DNA from: Alphaproteobacteria bacterium
Lineage (GTDB): Bacteria; Pseudomonadota; Alphaproteobacteria; Rs-D84
Direction of reading: 5' to 3'
Assembly (NCBI GenBank): GCA_017524525.1
Contig: JAFXVM010000004.1
Span: forward strand, 1-64,000
DNA: 64,000 nucleotides
The notes under the pieces were generated by a model that was not told the DNA's origin, did not search any database, and saw only the letters and a list, made by a program, of their open reading frames with translations. The translations under genes were made by a program, and so were the position numbers. Numbering within the stretch: position 1 is the first letter of the stretch; every line of letters starts with the position of its first letter. Shown here in pieces: positions 5,207 to 18,259 of the stretch.

Positions 5207-7822
5207 ATGAAACGTAGAACAGGATTTTATTCGTTTATTTTAACAAGTGTGGTTTGCATGCTTGGTGTGCCTGGGTTTGCGGCTTCGTCTGTGCGTATGT
5301 TGGGCGCAAATGGAAATACAGTTGTTGGTGCAGGGGTGGACGCAACAACGGGTGCGACGGTTGATAATGGTGTAAAAACAAATGCGGTGGCAACAGGTTC
5401 AGGTTCGGTGACCGGGCGTGCATCGTCTTTGCGGTTTTCGCCAACGGTGACGACAAAAACAAATAATACAGCATCGCAATCTTATTCTGGGTTGGTGTCA
5501 AACGGTGTCCAGACTGCGGGTGGTGCAAATGTTGTGTCAAATAATTCTCCGTCTGCGCGTTTATCAATTGGTAAGTATTTGAATTTATCGCATTCAACAA
5601 AACCGGTTACGCCAACAGATGGTGGTGAAACTTCTGGGAGTGGGGCGTCAAATGCAGATGTTGACGCTTTGCGTGCAGAATTGGATGCATTGCAAAACCA
5701 GGTTGATGATTTAAAAGACGGCAAACAAAATACTTTGGTTGTGGGGTCTGGGGAATATATTGATATATCGGGGCCGGGGAACAATGTTATTTCAATCGAT
5801 ATCCAGGCGTTAAAAGCCGATTTGCAGACTGCATTAGGAACCGATAAAGATATTTTGACCGAAATTGATGCGAATTATAAATTGTGGTGGTGTTATGCCA
5901 ATGCAACCAAAACGGCATGTGCAAATACTAAACAGGAAATTGTAGATTTGGGTAAGGTTTTAGATGAATATGATTTGGCGACCAATAATGAATCATTAAG
6001 TGCCGCATTGGCGGGAAAACAAGGTATGTTGACCGAAGCGGATAACGGTTATATCGCCATAGATCAAGAGCGTGGAACAATCGGTGTCAGGTTTGAAGAT
6101 TTAAGAGATGCGTTGGGAATTTCTGGAACCAGATCAAATGAAATTCGTTATACCGAAGATGGTAAATTACAGTGGCGGTATATGGATGAATATGAACAAG
6201 ATGGTGTTACGAAAAAATGGAATACCGCGGACATCAAATCTTTGATAGATTCTAGTTTGGAAAATTATGTTCAAACACAAACTTTGTTGGATTATGTTCA
6301 ACGCAGTGAGTTGGCTGGATTACAGGGAACTTTGACGGCGGATGCAGATAAGTATGTTGAAATCGTTGATAATAAAATTGGTGTTAAATTTGAAGACCTG
6401 AAAGATGCGTTGGATATTCCAACAGAACGCGAAATAGAAATGGAAATTGATGATGACGGAAAAATAAAGTGGCGTTATGTTGGTGCGGATGTGTGGCATA
6501 AAACTAATAAGGGTATAAGTGATTTTGTGGATTTGTCTGATTATGTCAAAAGTGATGAATTGGCAGGGTTCCAAGGTGCTTTGACGGCGGATGCAAATGG
6601 TTTCGTCCAAATAAATAATAATCAAATTGGAATCAAATATACCGAATTAAAAGACAAGTTGGTCCAAGATTTAAACATACCGGCGGCGGCAGAAAAAATC
6701 GAAATGGAAATTACTGAGGATGGTAAATTGCGCTGGCGGTATATGGATGAATATGAAATTAATCCGGAAACAAATGAAAATGTTAAAAAATGGACAGTGG
6801 TAGAGCAGAGTATTGATACGCTGATTGATGGTAAATTGGCGGCGTATGTTAGTAATGACAGTTTGAGTACGACTTTGCAAAATTATATAACAAGTACTGG
6901 GTTGTCGACAACTTTGCAAGATTATGCGTTAAAGACATATGTGGATACCGAATTGGGTAAAAAACAGGTTAAATTGACACCCGATGAAAATGGATTTATT
7001 GAAATTACACCGATAACCGGTGGGGGTGAAAAAATTGGTATAAAGTTTGATGATTTGAAAACTGCATTGGGAATTGATTCTGTGCGGTCTGCGGAAATAC
7101 GCGTTGATAATGGTATATTACAATGGCGTTATATGAACGATTTTGAAATTGACCCAGAAACAGGCAACCCAAAAACAGATACAAATGGTGAAAATATAAA
7201 AACATGGACAAATGTTTATAATTTGACGGATTTGTTAAATGGTTATGTCACTGAAACAAATTTGACTGAAATTGTAAATCGTATAGATGCGGATTTGGCG
7301 GGCAAGCAAATAAAGTTGGTTCCGGCGGTTGATGGTCATATTATATTAAACGAACAAACTGGTGAAATTGCTGTTGATATGGGCGAATTATTGGAACAAT
7401 TGTCCATAGAGGCCGGTACCGCCAGACAATCGCAAATTCGTGTGTTTGACGGTAAATTGCAATGGCGTTATGTCGACGAATTTACATACGAAGACAATGG
7501 CAATAAAGTTGAAACATGGCATACATTGAATTTGGCAGAGGTTGAATTGCCTTTGTATGTGGAAAAAACTTATTTGCGTAATAATTATTATAACAAGACA
7601 TATGTTGATAATTTGGCGCGGACGATTGAAAATAATATTAATATGACTTTGGATAGGCTGGCTTTGCCGGACGGACCGGATGCGGGTTTATATATGTTAA
7701 GCGTGACCGGCAGCGGAAGTGATAAAGTTTCATCATGGACACCAATACAAATTGTTGATGGTGCGGGTGTTGTCCAAAACTTTTCTATTAATGATTCTGG
7801 TAATAGTAATAGCGGTGAATAG
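5207..7822 (+). CDS. Large exported repeat protein with GKQ...LQWRY modules
   Basis: The 871-residue protein has a signal peptide cut after VPGFA and a Ser/Thr/Gly-rich leader to about residue 140. A short coiled coil follows (DVDALRAELDALQNQVDDLKDGKQ), then about five or six modules of 100-140 residues. Each module begins GKQ or L-x-G-x-Q-G-x-LT, passes through IGVKFEDLKDALGI and ends with dGKLQWRYMDEYE plus a W-T strand. The C-terminus is YVDNLARTIENNIN followed by a Gly/Ser tail (SGNSNSGE). The layout resembles trimeric fibre or stalk proteins, but no known adhesin domain or anchor is visible. It probably acts at the cell surface; I do not recognise the family. Confidence 0.8.
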   Translation: MKRRTGFYSFILTSVVCMLGVPGFAASSVRMLGANGNTVVGAGVDATTGATVDNGVKTNAVATGSGSVTGRASSLRFSPTVTTKTNNTASQSYSGLVSNGVQTAGGANVVSNNSPSARLSIGKYLNLSHSTKPVTPTDGGETSGSGASNADVDALRAELDALQNQVDDLKDGKQNTLVVGSGEYIDISGPGNNVISIDIQALKADLQTALGTDKDILTEIDANYKLWWCYANATKTACANTKQEIVDLGKVLDEYDLATNNESLSAALAGKQGMLTEADNGYIAIDQERGTIGVRFEDLRDALGISGTRSNEIRYTEDGKLQWRYMDEYEQDGVTKKWNTADIKSLIDSSLENYVQTQTLLDYVQRSELAGLQGTLTADADKYVEIVDNKIGVKFEDLKDALDIPTEREIEMEIDDDGKIKWRYVGADVWHKTNKGISDFVDLSDYVKSDELAGFQGALTADANGFVQINNNQIGIKYTELKDKLVQDLNIPAAAEKIEMEITEDGKLRWRYMDEYEINPETNENVKKWTVVEQSIDTLIDGKLAAYVSNDSLSTTLQNYITSTGLSTTLQDYALKTYVDTELGKKQVKLTPDENGFIEITPITGGGEKIGIKFDDLKTALGIDSVRSAEIRVDNGILQWRYMNDFEIDPETGNPKTDTNGENIKTWTNVYNLTDLLNGYVTETNLTEIVNRIDADLAGKQIKLVPAVDGHIILNEQTGEIAVDMGELLEQLSIEAGTARQSQIRVFDGKLQWRYVDEFTYEDNGNKVETWHTLNLAEVELPLYVEKTYLRNNYYNKTYVDNLARTIENNINMTLDRLALPDGPDAGLYMLSVTGSGSDKVSSWTPIQIVDGAGVVQNFSINDSGNSNSGE

Positions 7823-10282: not shown

Positions 10283-10422
10283 AAAAACCACCCATTTGGG
10301 TGGTTCGGGATTCTAACATTTATTTTTTTATTATGCGGTTATTAATTAACTGCACTTACGTTTTCTGTATCCATTGCGGTCCATTCATAATGACCATCAA
10401 AGTATGTCAACACGCATGGATT
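10283..10422 (-). repeat. 140-bp inverted repeat, 3' end of surface-protein gene A
   Basis: This is identical in reverse complement to 13363-13502. It covers the last ~27 codons, the stop, the 3' UTR and the terminator, whereas the flanking coding sequence has diverged. Such a sharp identity boundary suggests recent duplication or gene conversion. Confidence 0.85.
10286..10305. terminator. Shared terminator of the methyltransferase and surface gene A
   Basis: AACCACCC (10286-10293) pairs with GGGTGGTT (10298-10305), flanked by A-rich and T-rich runs so that it works in both directions. The same hairpin follows the plus-strand paralogue at 13480-13499. Confidence 0.75.
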
Positions 10423-11622
10423 CGATGCAGTACATGACGAACTGTAATTGCTGCCCGAAACATTGACATTGGACAATCCTGCATCCATTGCATCATTAAA
10501 TGTGATTTTACCTCTGCTGGCTGTGATTAAACCGTCTGTTTGGGTTACTGCGGTCACAGGCATCGTGACAGCACCAGTTCCAGTTGTAGCAGTATTAGAT
10601 CCATATGTTGATTGATCTAATGCCTCGAATTGTTGGGTAACCGCTTTTTGGGTTGTCAAATCTCTATCAGAAGCGTATGTGGCGGTTGCAGTAGAATCTG
10701 TGGTCTGCCATCTTCCACTGGCTGCTGTTGGTGCAGTACCCGCCGCATATTTTGTTGTAGCAGCAATAGCGGCAACTGTTGTAAGTTTATTATCATTGCC
10801 ATTTTGTGCGGTGTTATTAGCATGCGATGTCAAAACGTTGTTTGTTTCTTTGCTGATATTGTTACCGGCTTGAGTAACCGCTCTTTCAACACGTCTTTCA
10901 ACCGCGGCGACTGTTGGAACATAATCATCGGTTGCCTTGTCGTGTTTTATTTTTTCCCATGCGGCATCTGTTTTGTCTGCTACACCTTCTGTGTCTATAT
11001 CAAAATTTGATGTATGATGTTCAATGCCGGTACCCAAAGCATACGCAATGCCCTTTGTAATATTAGAATTACGTGGGATTAGATTTTGATGGTCTTTTGC
11101 ATCATCGGTAACAACATTATGATATTTAGGGTCTGCTGCTATAGCGGCGATTAAAGCATCATATTTTTCCCCACTTGTCTTCTTTCCATCTTCAACCCAA
11201 CTTGCATATGCTTCCATAGCAGTTTCGCCCATTCCTTCTTCAAACAAACCTTTTATAGCATCAATATTACCAGATAAAGCAGCATTTAAGGTATCAATTG
11301 CACTACGGACCGCGGTTTCGGTTGGAACTTTAACATTACTTGTTGAACCAGCTTCAGCAACTGATGTTGTTTTCATACCTTCAACAGCAGTAATAGACGG
11401 TGCCATAGAATCTTTACTTTCCCCGCTTGCCATTGTTAAATCCAATGCGTTGGTACCGTTTTTGATATAATCTGTTGCAGCGATACTGCCCTTGGTGACT
11501 GTGACGGCGCCATCTGCAGCAGTAATGTCTGTAATAACATTACCAGAACCGCTTACAGTAATGTTTGCGTTTGCACCGGTACTGGTCAACTTATTCTGTT
11601 TTGTGGCGTCCATTGCGTCCAC
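10342..11622 (-). CDS. Silent surface-protein cassette A (no promoter, no signal peptide)
   Basis: The 426 residues from a GTG are paralogous to the exported protein at 12154-13443. Shared blocks are AMDATKQNKLTSTGANANI at the start, APSITAV-x-MKTT, LIPRN-x-N-I-x-KGI, DDYVPT-x-AAVE and the identical end PCVLTYFDGHYEWTAMD. Homology continues upstream of the GTG (GWGALAADGDTIIASKAYV) to 11677, then stops exactly at the end of a 117-bp inverted repeat; beyond that there is no ATG, ribosome site or signal peptide. The frame is intact to its stop, unlike a decaying pseudogene. Inverting 11678-12203 would give it a promoter and signal peptide in frame. Confidence 0.7.
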   Translation of the reverse strand: MDAMDATKQNKLTSTGANANITVSGSGNVITDITAADGAVTVTKGSIAATDYIKNGTNALDLTMASGESKDSMAPSITAVEGMKTTSVAEAGSTSNVKVPTETAVRSAIDTLNAALSGNIDAIKGLFEEGMGETAMEAYASWVEDGKKTSGEKYDALIAAIAADPKYHNVVTDDAKDHQNLIPRNSNITKGIAYALGTGIEHHTSNFDIDTEGVADKTDAAWEKIKHDKATDDYVPTVAAVERRVERAVTQAGNNISKETNNVLTSHANNTAQNGNDNKLTTVAAIAATTKYAAGTAPTAASGRWQTTDSTATATYASDRDLTTQKAVTQQFEALDQSTYGSNTATTGTGAVTMPVTAVTQTDGLITASRGKITFNDAMDAGLSNVNVSGSNYSSSCTASNPCVLTYFDGHYEWTAMDTENVSAVN

Positions 11623-11677
11623 GTACGCTTTTGACGCGATAATTGTGTCGCCATCTGCGGCTAATGCACCCCAGCCA
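11561..11677 (-). repeat. Left 117-bp inverted repeat of the putative invertible segment
   Basis: This is the perfect reverse complement of 12204-12320. It encodes the residues just after and overlapping the signal-peptide end of the paralogue (GWGALAADGDTIIASKAYVD onward). Identity ends abruptly on both sides. Confidence 0.9.
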
Positions 11678-11715
11678 AAAGTGTTTTTTTCGTTGCTATA
11701 CTGCGTATTTTTTCT

Positions 11716-11806
11716 TCGTCATACCGGCGATAATTCCCCTCCTGAGGAGGGGAATTTCGGGAAACCACCCCGGCGCTTCGCGCCACCCCTCCATAGAGGG
11801 GAACTT
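11716..11806. repeat. REP-like element with three hairpins
   Basis: It begins TCGTCATACCGG and contains a perfect 10-bp hairpin (11733-11742 with 11746-11755, loop TGA), GGCG/CGCC (11772-11775 with 11781-11784) and CCCCTC/GAGGGG (11786-11791 with 11796-11801). It is GC-rich against an AT-rich background. Its TCGTCAT end recurs around the palindromic cluster at 13541-13727. It lies within the putative invertible segment. Confidence 0.6.
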
Positions 11807-12036
11807 TTACGCCATTGGCATCAATCTTGTCTATACAAAAAATCGATATGATTTTTGGATATGGGTGCGGAATTTCGATTCGAAAAACGCACAAAAAAAC
11901 ACAAATAAAATTTTGCTAATTTGGGACAATATGCATACAAACAACGGTCGCAAACCTGCACAAAACATGATGTTTGGTAATAAAAAAATTAAATAATATC
12001 ATTTTATATATTACACATAAATTTTGATTTTTAGGT

Positions 12037-12065
12037 TTGCACAAAACAAAAAAGTATGATATAAT
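12037..12065 (+). promoter_or_regulatory. Promoter of surface-protein gene B, inside the invertible segment
   Basis: TTGCAC (12037-12042), a 17-bp spacer and TATAAT (12060-12065), with TG two bases upstream (TGATATAAT) giving an extended -10. It points to the right, toward the gene at 12154. Confidence 0.65.
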
Positions 12066-12153
12066 AAAGATAACAAGTCGGAGGGATTTTGCCTATACGA
12101 AGGTGTTTTGTATTCCACCGAACAAACAAACGAAGGAACAAAGGGAAACTAAC

Positions 12154-13443
12154 ATGAAAATAAGAAATCTTGCCTTTTGCGGAGTAATGGCATCAATCCT
12201 GTCTGGCTGGGGTGCATTAGCCGCAGATGGCGACACAATTATCGCGTCAAAAGCGTACGTGGACGCAATGGACGCCACAAAACAGAATAAGTTGACCAGT
12301 ACCGGTGCAAACGCAAACATCAACATTGTGGATTCTACAGGTAATAATACAGGTAATGTTATTACAAACATCGCCGCCAGTGATGGTACAGTCACCGTTA
12401 CCAAAGGTAATATTTCAGCATCAAATTTCGTTAAGAATACTGATACTGTGGGTGGTGTACAAAAAACAAATGTTTTAGAATTTGATAATGATTCTGATCA
12501 TGCACCATCAATCACCGCGGTTAAAAACATGAAAACGACAACGGTTAGAGCAACTGGTGCAGTGGATACATTGGTTCCAACCGAAGCCGCGGTCCGTAAT
12601 GCAATTAATACCGCAGCGTCAAATACTTCAGATGCTATCACGGGTCAATTTGAAACTGATGTTAATATAGAAGATGAAGAGTCTACTAATGCGGCACACA
12701 ACGTTGTTGCAGATACAGAAGATCCTAATTTGATTCCACGTAATTACAATATCCAAAAAGGTATTATGTATTTAAATGGTGCTGGTATTGAAAATCATTA
12801 TTCAGAAAACGATAACGAACCACTGAACGGTGATGCTATTACTGCTGACCAATCTTGGACACAGGACCCCAGTGAAACATCTGTGTACAAAGTGGGAAAC
12901 ATGGATGATTATGTTCCAACAATGGCGGCGGTCGAAGCACGTGTTAAGGAAGCGGAAAATTCAGCAAGTTCTGAGTATGCCGATAAAAGTTTGTCGAATA
13001 TCAATAGCAGTGGTAACGGCGTAATCGACGGACGGATTGACACAAAAATTAACGCATTAGATGTTGGTTTAACCAGTGGTACAACCGGTGTGACTATGGG
13101 TGGGACGGCTGTTTCTGGTGATATTGGCAAGGTGGTTGTATCTGTTCAAGAACAAGACGGTTTGCTTACTAACGTTGCCTTGGGTCAAGCGGGGACTGCC
13201 GGTATCGCAGACAGTGCGGTGACATCTGCAAAAATCGCTGATGGCACAATCATGAACGCAGATATCAACAGTTCGGCGGCAATCGACTTTTCAAAAATGG
13301 GCGCAGGATTGTCCAGTGTTAATGTGTCTGGTGGCAATTACAGTTCGTCATGCACAGCGGCAAATCCATGCGTGTTGACATACTTTGATGGTCATTATGA
13401 ATGGACCGCAATGGATACAGAAAACGTAAGTGCAGTTAATTAA
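12154..13443 (+). CDS. Exported surface protein B (expressed copy of the paralogous pair)
   Basis: I start at the ATG at 12154 (MKIRNLAFCGVMASILSGWGALAADGD), giving 429 residues. This begins a standard signal peptide cut after ALA and follows an AAAGGGAAA ribosome site; the longer open frame upstream overlaps the promoter. The mature protein is Thr/Asn/Asp-rich with repeating short strands (VTVTKGNISASNFVK, APSITAVKNMKTT, VPTEAAVRNAI), and the end has a Cys pair (SSCTAANPCVLTYFDGHYEWTAMD). No known domain is seen. Residues 19-57 and the last ~27 are encoded by DNA identical to cassette A, and the middle is clearly diverged. A surface antigen or adhesin role is inferred. Confidence 0.8.
   Translation: MKIRNLAFCGVMASILSGWGALAADGDTIIASKAYVDAMDATKQNKLTSTGANANINIVDSTGNNTGNVITNIAASDGTVTVTKGNISASNFVKNTDTVGGVQKTNVLEFDNDSDHAPSITAVKNMKTTTVRATGAVDTLVPTEAAVRNAINTAASNTSDAITGQFETDVNIEDEESTNAAHNVVADTEDPNLIPRNYNIQKGIMYLNGAGIENHYSENDNEPLNGDAITADQSWTQDPSETSVYKVGNMDDYVPTMAAVEARVKEAENSASSEYADKSLSNINSSGNGVIDGRIDTKINALDVGLTSGTTGVTMGGTAVSGDIGKVVVSVQEQDGLLTNVALGQAGTAGIADSAVTSAKIADGTIMNADINSSAAIDFSKMGAGLSSVNVSGGNYSSSCTAANPCVLTYFDGHYEWTAMDTENVSAVN
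12204..12320 (+). repeat. Right 117-bp inverted repeat of the putative invertible segment
   Basis: This is the perfect inverted match of 11561-11677. It starts in the last codons of the signal peptide of gene B, so recombination between the two copies swaps promoter, leader and signal peptide without disturbing the reading frame. Confidence 0.9.
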
Positions 13444-13502
13444 TAACCGCATAATAAAAAAATAAATGTTAGAATCCCGAACCACCCAAATGGGTGGTTT
13501 TT
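13363..13502 (+). repeat. 140-bp inverted repeat, 3' end of surface-protein gene B
   Basis: This is identical to 10283-10422 in reverse complement, including the terminator hairpin at 13480-13499 with its T-run. Confidence 0.85.
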
Positions 13503-13749: not shown

Positions 13750-14085
13750 TTATAAATTTTTCAATAAATCTTCGATGCGGGTGGCACGATCCATTGTGTC
13801 GTCGTATATGAATTTTATTTCTGGGGTATATTTTTGGTCTAGGCGCGCCGCCAATTCATAACGAATTGTTTTTGTGACGGTGTCTAATTTTTGTTGTGTG
13901 GAATTTGGGTCTTGGTTGGTATAATAATACAAACGGACAAATGATAGTCCGCCATAACATTCGGCATCAACCAACGAAATGCCCGATAGTATGGGGTCGT
14001 CACTGAATTTATCGCGCAGTATTTCCGCGACAATTGTTTGAACTTTGGATGCAATGCGATTGCCGCGCGGCGTTTGTTTTTTCAT
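13750..14085 (-). CDS. rbfA: Ribosome-binding factor A
   Basis: The 111-residue single KH-like domain protein has the RbfA N-terminal pattern (RGNRIASKVQTIVAEILRDKF), the strand SFVRLYYYTNQD and the C-terminal TPEIKFIYDDTMDRATRIEDLL. It binds the 30S subunit near helix 1 of 16S rRNA during maturation and cold adaptation. The usual partner infB is not adjacent here; the gene is isolated next to the palindromic cluster and divergent from the DedA gene. Confidence 0.92.
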   Translation of the reverse strand: MKKQTPRGNRIASKVQTIVAEILRDKFSDDPILSGISLVDAECYGGLSFVRLYYYTNQDPNSTQQKLDTVTKTIRYELAARLDQKYTPEIKFIYDDTMDRATRIEDLLKNL

Positions 14086-17257: not shown

Positions 17258-18259
17258 ATGGCTCATCAGTTTTTCTTTAATCCCTATATCTTGGATAATT
17301 TGCCGACACCGGCAACCGGCTTTGATGTTGTCCAAGATATTTCAGAACCGTTGCTTCGTCTGTATATAACCAGTCGTGGCGCAAAAACTTTTTTTGTGCG
17401 TAAACGTGTGCGTGGTAAAGATACGCGTATTATTATTGGGGCGTATCCGGAAATGGATATTGAAACGGCACGCGCTCAGGTTGCAATGGTGTTAAATGAT
17501 GCAACAAAAAAAATCCCAATACGACGGAAAAAATTATCTTTCAAAGAATTTTGGGAAATATATTTAAAAAATCAAGTTCGTCGATGTGAAGATTCCGAAG
17601 TGAAATTGGTGCGTGCGGTAAATATGCATTTAAGTGAATTGTTTGATAAAAATATTGCAGATATTACCCAAGACGATATTAAAAATGTTGTTGGAAAAAT
17701 TGGTGGAAATGTGATTGCTGCGCGCATGCAAGAAGTATTGCTTAGCATATTTAAGTATGCGGTGGACCAAGGATATGTAAAACAAAATCCTGTGGCTGGA
17801 TTGCCAAAAATTCAACAGGCGCGGCGCATCAGTCCATTAAATGAAGAAAATATTTCGCGTTTGTTGGATGCAATTCGTGCCATGGACGATGAAACCATGC
17901 GTAATGCTTTTTTGATGTTGATATATTCGTTCTTGCCAAAAAATAAAGTGTTATCGATGCGCTGGGATGAACTGGATTTTAATCATTATCTGTGGCGTGA
18001 TTGGCCTTTGCCGGATGTTGCGGTTGTGTTGTTGGAAAATATGCCCGAAGGTGGTGATTGGGTGTTTATGGGACGTTGCAAGAATCATTTGGCAGATCCG
18101 CGTGTCGCATGGCGTAGAGTTGTGACTGCGGCTCATATGCCAAATTTACGTATGGATGATGTGTATAAATTCTTTATGCGGCGTTTGGTATGGGCGGCAG
18201 ACCGCGAAGATGTGCGTGTGAATATGAACTCTTTGCTTGCGCAATTCGGGATACAATAA
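17258..18259 (+). CDS. Integrase-like protein lacking the tyrosine-recombinase active site
   Basis: The 333-residue protein has the layout of a P4-type tyrosine integrase. It has an N-terminal arm-binding (DUF4102-like) domain at ~15-90 (LLRLYITSRGAKTFFVRKRV, IIIGAYPEMDIETARAQV), a core-binding helical domain at ~95-190 (KYAVDQGYVKQNPVAGL) and a catalytic-like domain (MLIYSFLPKNKVLSMRWDELDF). The first catalytic Arg position of the G-x-R-x-x-E box is Pro/Lys, the H-x-L-R box reads RMDDVYK, and the protein ends before the Tyr. The frame is intact and normally codon-biased. I infer a domesticated DNA-binding protein rather than an active recombinase. Confidence 0.72.
   Translation: MAHQFFFNPYILDNLPTPATGFDVVQDISEPLLRLYITSRGAKTFFVRKRVRGKDTRIIIGAYPEMDIETARAQVAMVLNDATKKIPIRRKKLSFKEFWEIYLKNQVRRCEDSEVKLVRAVNMHLSELFDKNIADITQDDIKNVVGKIGGNVIAARMQEVLLSIFKYAVDQGYVKQNPVAGLPKIQQARRISPLNEENISRLLDAIRAMDDETMRNAFLMLIYSFLPKNKVLSMRWDELDFNHYLWRDWPLPDVAVVLLENMPEGGDWVFMGRCKNHLADPRVAWRRVVTAAHMPNLRMDDVYKFFMRRLVWAADREDVRVNMNSLLAQFGIQ

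Follow-up and report, generated by a model that had tools for sequence, protein, structure and literature searches.

How could two secreted-protein genes both be kept usable when only one promoter and one start of a signal peptide lie between them? The question is raised by a pair of divergent genes, here called A and B, in a Candidatus Enterousia genome of the order Rs-D84, a group of uncultured gut Alphaproteobacteria with reduced genomes. Genomes in this order are near 1 Mb, and its members appear to be obligate symbionts or parasites (PMC12306168). The source genome comprises 965 kb in 18 contigs (96.5% complete, 2.9% contamination), and the window is the whole 64-kb stretch of it that was analysed. 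We favor, with some confidence, the view that the locus is an inversion switch between the two genes that operates by homologous recombination, most likely via RecA. The locus is new as an instance; the switching of surface-protein genes by inversion is itself already known. We found no report in the literature of phase variation in the order Rs-D84.

The putative invertible core (11678-12203, 526 bp) contains the sole promoter, the sole start codon and the first half of the only signal peptide of the A/B pair. It is bounded by a left arm (11561-11677, minus strand) and a right arm (12204-12320, plus strand) that form a 117-bp inverted repeat with 100% complementarity, just as an earlier note on this DNA had described. 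The left arm provides the opening in-frame codons of gene A, and the right arm provides codons 17-55 of gene B, which encode the end of the signal peptide and the mature N-terminus. The arms are in the same codon phase of both genes. Gene B (12154-13443, plus strand, 429 aa) begins at the ATG at 12154 and is at present attached to the promoter and leader; the earlier note was right that the segment now feeds this gene. In the assembled orientation, the body of gene A (10342-11677, minus strand) lacks both leader and start codon, yet its 444 codons run uninterrupted from the arm to the stop at 10342. No ATG, GTG or TTG lies ahead of the arm, an in-frame stop lies upstream, and the promoter scan found no promoter-like site on the minus strand (that of gene A) within the core. 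Gene A had been described as an intact frame lacking promoter and leader, and this is what we found. When 11561-12320 (760 bases) was inverted in silico, gene A gained a complete 461-aa frame with the full leader, and gene B became leaderless and was placed at the former dead end of gene A. The prediction that inversion would attach leader and promoter to A in frame and silence B is borne out to this extent. As in an inverton, inverted repeats flank a promoter-bearing segment, and its inversion joins the promoter to another intact frame.

The promoter at 12037-12065 (plus strand) has the form TTGCAC-17-TATAAT with an extended -10 TG, and it aligns with an element upstream of the A-type genes of relatives. 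The scan overall was not above shuffled sequence (10 sites found versus 9.5 expected). Because the scan alone performs at the level of chance, we base the promoter call on its conserved place in relatives, and on that footing the promoter proposed earlier stands. Alignment with relatives also identified a conserved A-type 5' untranslated motif and ribosome site, ending AAAGGGAAACTAAC (12125-12153, plus strand). The signal peptide that follows, MKIRNLAFCGVMASILSGWGALAA (12154-12225, plus strand), is of standard form and is A-type by comparison with the leaders of relatives. The leader had been placed inside the core; its first 16 codons are there and would move with it, but the cleavage region and first mature residues are within the arm, which puts the switch point inside the signal peptide. 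The core also contains a GC-rich palindromic element (11732-11807, including AATTCCCCTCCTGAGGAGGGGAATT and CCCCGGCGCTTCGCGCCACCCC), and copies resembling it are scattered in other Enterousia genomes, like REP elements.

The inner arms are found nowhere else in the 965-kb genome, according to a whole-genome search. A second exact inverted pair of 140 bp, overlooked in the earlier note, lies at the 3' ends of both genes. Its left copy (10283-10422, minus strand) covers the 3' end and terminator of A, and its right copy (13363-13502, plus strand) covers those of B. This outer pair sits within a 207-bp repeat that is 94% identical (10283-10489 and 13296-13502) and spans both C-terminal ends and terminators. 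Apart from the inner and outer pairs, the window has no exact inverted repeat of at least 20 bp. Outside the repeats, the coding DNA of A and B is mostly 33-80% identical, and the same residue is encoded at 127 of the 297 aligned codons of the bodies. Given this divergence, the exact inner arms are not a product of chance: at the 72% identity of the nearest flank, the probability of 117 exact base pairs is 0.72^117, or about 1e-17. The same divergence between the repeats rules out that the exact blocks are the residue of a recent duplication of the whole gene. Recent exchange is therefore needed at both gene ends.

What could carry out such exchange? The earlier note had named RecA or a remote recombinase as the possible agents, and the genome has a recA gene, encoded elsewhere than the locus. 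No serine recombinase of the Hin/Gin/Cin type was found, there being no PF00239 match in this 96.5% complete genome. Tyrosine recombinases are represented by five PF00589 matches, none on the contig of the window. The earlier note reported no invertase gene nearby. It is correct that no catalytic recombinase lies beside the locus, but a degenerate integrase-like gene does lie nearby (17258-18256). The encoded protein has arm-binding and core-binding domains and no match to a catalytic domain, and the gene adjoins lepA throughout the genus, including in relatives without the repeats. We rejected it as the invertase on these two grounds. A stretch of 117 exact base pairs is ample for homologous recombination. 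Since recA is present, serine recombinases were not found and the tyrosine recombinases are on other contigs, inversion driven by RecA is the economical proposal; the alternative is an unknown tyrosine recombinase.

In the mechanism that we postulate, two divergent paralogous genes for secreted proteins would use one promoter and one signal-peptide start. Homologous recombination between the 117-bp arms, most likely by RecA, would invert the 526-bp core. In the assembled orientation, B would be made and exported and A would be silent; in the inverted orientation, that leader would go to A, which would then be made, and B would be silent. The outer 140-bp repeats could permit exchange at the 3' ends.

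Relatives indicate how this arrangement may have arisen. The named ones are alphaproteobacterial metagenome-assembled genomes from rumen and gut, including Candidatus Enterousia onthequi, and the closest were ranked by DedA identity. (A second DedA gene, 64% identical, lies on another contig, at positions 1181-1756 of C18 in G000; it is a paralog or, alternatively, sequence from a contaminant of the bin.) In close relatives, this position near big-lpxI-trmA and dedA-lepA is occupied by one A-type and one B-type gene. The two genes have separate leaders in the six genomes in which both can be read, as they do in RUG14456 (L121). The A-type leaders resemble MKI[RK]NLAFCGVMASILG and follow upstream DNA of the form ACAAACAAAC..AAAGGGAAA.TAACATG; the B-type leaders are distinct from these and follow CACACACAAACGAAGGAAA.GGAAATG. 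The single leader in the window is A-type as protein (a mean of 58 bits to A-type versus 36 to B-type leaders), and the DNA upstream of it is likewise A-type in alignment with relatives. The body of B, in contrast, scores as B-type both in its opening part (at best 55.5 versus 33.9 bits) and at its end (84.0 versus 55.8 bits, the match being B of RUG14456). The combination of a promoter and leader of A type, a body behind them that is largely B-type, and an A gene without a leader points to an exchange of leaders that has probably taken place here. The earlier reading of the locus as a promoter and leader switch thus has its anatomy, in frame both ways, and the leader types of relatives suggest the exchange.

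The bodies are less simply assigned. Residues 166-310 of B are equally close to A-type and B-type bodies, and for this reason the orthology of A and B is a mosaic. Gene A is closer to a B-type body in its opening part (residues 40-129), whereas it is A-type over residues 95 to 294 and in its end segment. Across several loci of relatives (L064-L069, L071 and L121), the bodies of the A and B proteins combine common modules (such as DxYVPTVAAVExRV) in mosaic fashion, flanked by conserved ends. The sister species G028 and G154 have leaders in common and strongly different A bodies. Such mosaics could suggest that A serves as a silent archive whose segments are transferred into the expressed B through gene conversion in the manner of pilS/pilE, with the exact 5' and 3' blocks being traces of conversion tracts and not of inversion. 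Exact blocks of 117 and 140 bp at both gene ends and a leaderless silent copy would fit such an archive. However, conversion by itself accounts neither for the loss of the leader of A exactly at the repeat edge nor for the A-type leader of B, and the genome yielded a single donor. We consider an archive improbable.

The arrangement of neighboring genes has also changed during evolution. The order and orientation of lpxI/trmA, A, B and rbfA vary among relatives, and therefore the locus inverts on an evolutionary time scale. The rbfA gene of the window (13750-14085) is opposed to dedA and lepA, with which it is co-directional in most close relatives (L064-L067, L069 and L071), and this opposed rbfA is a further local inversion. 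Two relatives share the divergent layout with A on the minus and B on the plus strand; no relative examined shares the repeats, and other orders and orientations occur. Exact inverted repeats do not exceed 28 bp at any of 29 syntenic loci from the genomes of 28 relatives, a result that is biased downward because assemblies break at long repeats. The nearest case is a 26-bp repeat between opposed A and B genes in G153, at the codons for IASKAYVDA. This distribution indicates that the architecture in the window is derived. A contig break in the close relative G115 was considered as a possible trace of both orientations and was rejected; its two contig ends fit a single broken A-type gene.

Contig ends inside such genes in relatives, and the assembly of the source genome from a metagenome into 18 contigs, raise the possibility that A and B were falsely joined across the repeat. 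We think this very unlikely. The order trmA-A-B-rbfA-dedA-lepA in the window matches that in relatives, including the two with the same divergent layout, and reads are commonly longer than the 117 bp of the repeat. Only one orientation has been observed, in one metagenome-assembled genome, and it could be arbitrary if reads did not span the 117-bp repeat. Even if the core were misoriented, there would still be one leader for two genes. A wrong orientation would weaken the case for a past flip, which depends on the true orientation of the core.

The simplest history would begin with a pair like that in G013 or RUG14456, with A on the minus strand, B on the plus strand and both genes leadered. 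B would have lost its leader, and the leader of A would then have been inverted onto B. A single past inversion or conversion that moved the leader from A to B could also have left A dead and not yet decayed, at a locus that no longer switches. The sole known orientation, the lack of the repeats in every relative examined and the absence of every expression signal from A are all consistent with a dead gene. Against this, A is still open over 444 codons although 140 of the 3996 possible single-base changes would create a stop, and the arms are still exact, so that recombination would be expected to go on in a recA-positive cell. We regard a dead A as unlikely, and continue to favor a reversible inversion switch. 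More tentatively, and with a little less than even confidence, we propose that a phase switch was born here between related species: two divergent surface genes, separately expressed in the ancestral state seen in relatives, lost one promoter and leader and now share the other by means of exact inverted repeats within the genes, with RecA only.

Searches of Pfam, NCBIfam, PADLOC and PDB sequences gave no relative of use for A or B, and the viral and phage collections gave no relative. A PHROG tail protein matches residues 352-387 of B weakly (E 1.3e-5). AlphaFold2, with a 12-sequence alignment, gave no usable fold (mean pLDDT 38). A location of A and B at the cell surface is suggested by the signal peptide, by bodies that are hypervariable between conserved ends and by similar families with leaders throughout the genus. 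The proteins might, as the earlier note proposed, act as antigens or adhesins. G078 and G079 (L092-L111) encode extensive families of short proteins that are secreted and whose genes resemble one another at the 5' ends (about 200-380 bp, 75-96%); the proteins share a motif, TSKxYVDAxDALKQNKI, and are otherwise variable, and several contigs end inside the 5' ends. These families are a possible multi-copy antigenic repertoire. Also conserved beside the A/B locus is a gene for a large, apparently secreted protein (5207-7822) with internal repeats (GKLQWRYxDEFE units, family D1) and no Pfam match.

The locus appears functionally like known inversion switches of surface-protein genes, and the proteins are unrelated. 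Like those of the sap and slp type, it consists of opposed paralogs whose 5' coding parts are identical over long stretches and one of which is promoterless, in a genome with recA. In Campylobacter fetus, inversion of the sap promoter picks among surface-protein genes with a common 5' coding end, and the system has many cassettes and an invertible element of several kilobases. Here, in contrast, there are two partners only, and they are unrelated to the sap proteins. Inversion at sap is only partly RecA-dependent, according to work cited in PMC5634654. In Lactobacillus acidophilus, inversion of a segment swaps the active and silent genes slpA and slpB (Boot 1996, as cited in PMC6015585 and PMC6176008). 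As the pair is described in those citing papers, it resembles the present one in that one surface-protein gene is expressed and its partner, having no promoter, is silent; both slp genes are on the inverting 6-kb segment, whereas here a 526-bp core carries promoter and leader and the arms are inside both genes. The phylum is also different, and A and B have no S-layer family match (Slp or Sap) in Pfam, NCBIfam or PDB-sequence searches. In Ureaplasma, which is reduced in genome and host-dependent, as Enterousia appears to be, inverted repeats in the 5' coding parts of mba/UU376 and UU172/UU171 allow opposed surface-protein genes to be expressed alternately (PMC3047005). The Ureaplasma sites are short (21 nt at mba) with a presumed site-specific recombinase (PMC3047005), whereas here the arms are 117 bp and exact, with no recombinase that matches a catalytic domain beside the locus. 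In Mycoplasma agalactiae, Xer1-independent recombination in a 38-bp stretch common to two vpma genes leads to promoter inversion and a hybrid gene (PMC5634654). That event stands apart from the usual Xer1 system, whereas at the A/B locus homologous recombination would be the principal route. Phage shufflons, which have several invertible C-terminal segments, short sites and a Rci-type recombinase, are a poor match to this locus, with its single core, its long arms at the 5' ends and no catalytic recombinase.

If the switch is real, Rs-D84 bacteria would face pressure from immunity, phages or partners under which alternating between surface proteins pays off, and alternation could thereby benefit a host-dependent gut bacterium. 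Related species show the likely states before and after an ordinary pair of divergent genes became such a switch, and thereby make the origin of contingency loci a general question that can be tested by genome comparison and read mapping.
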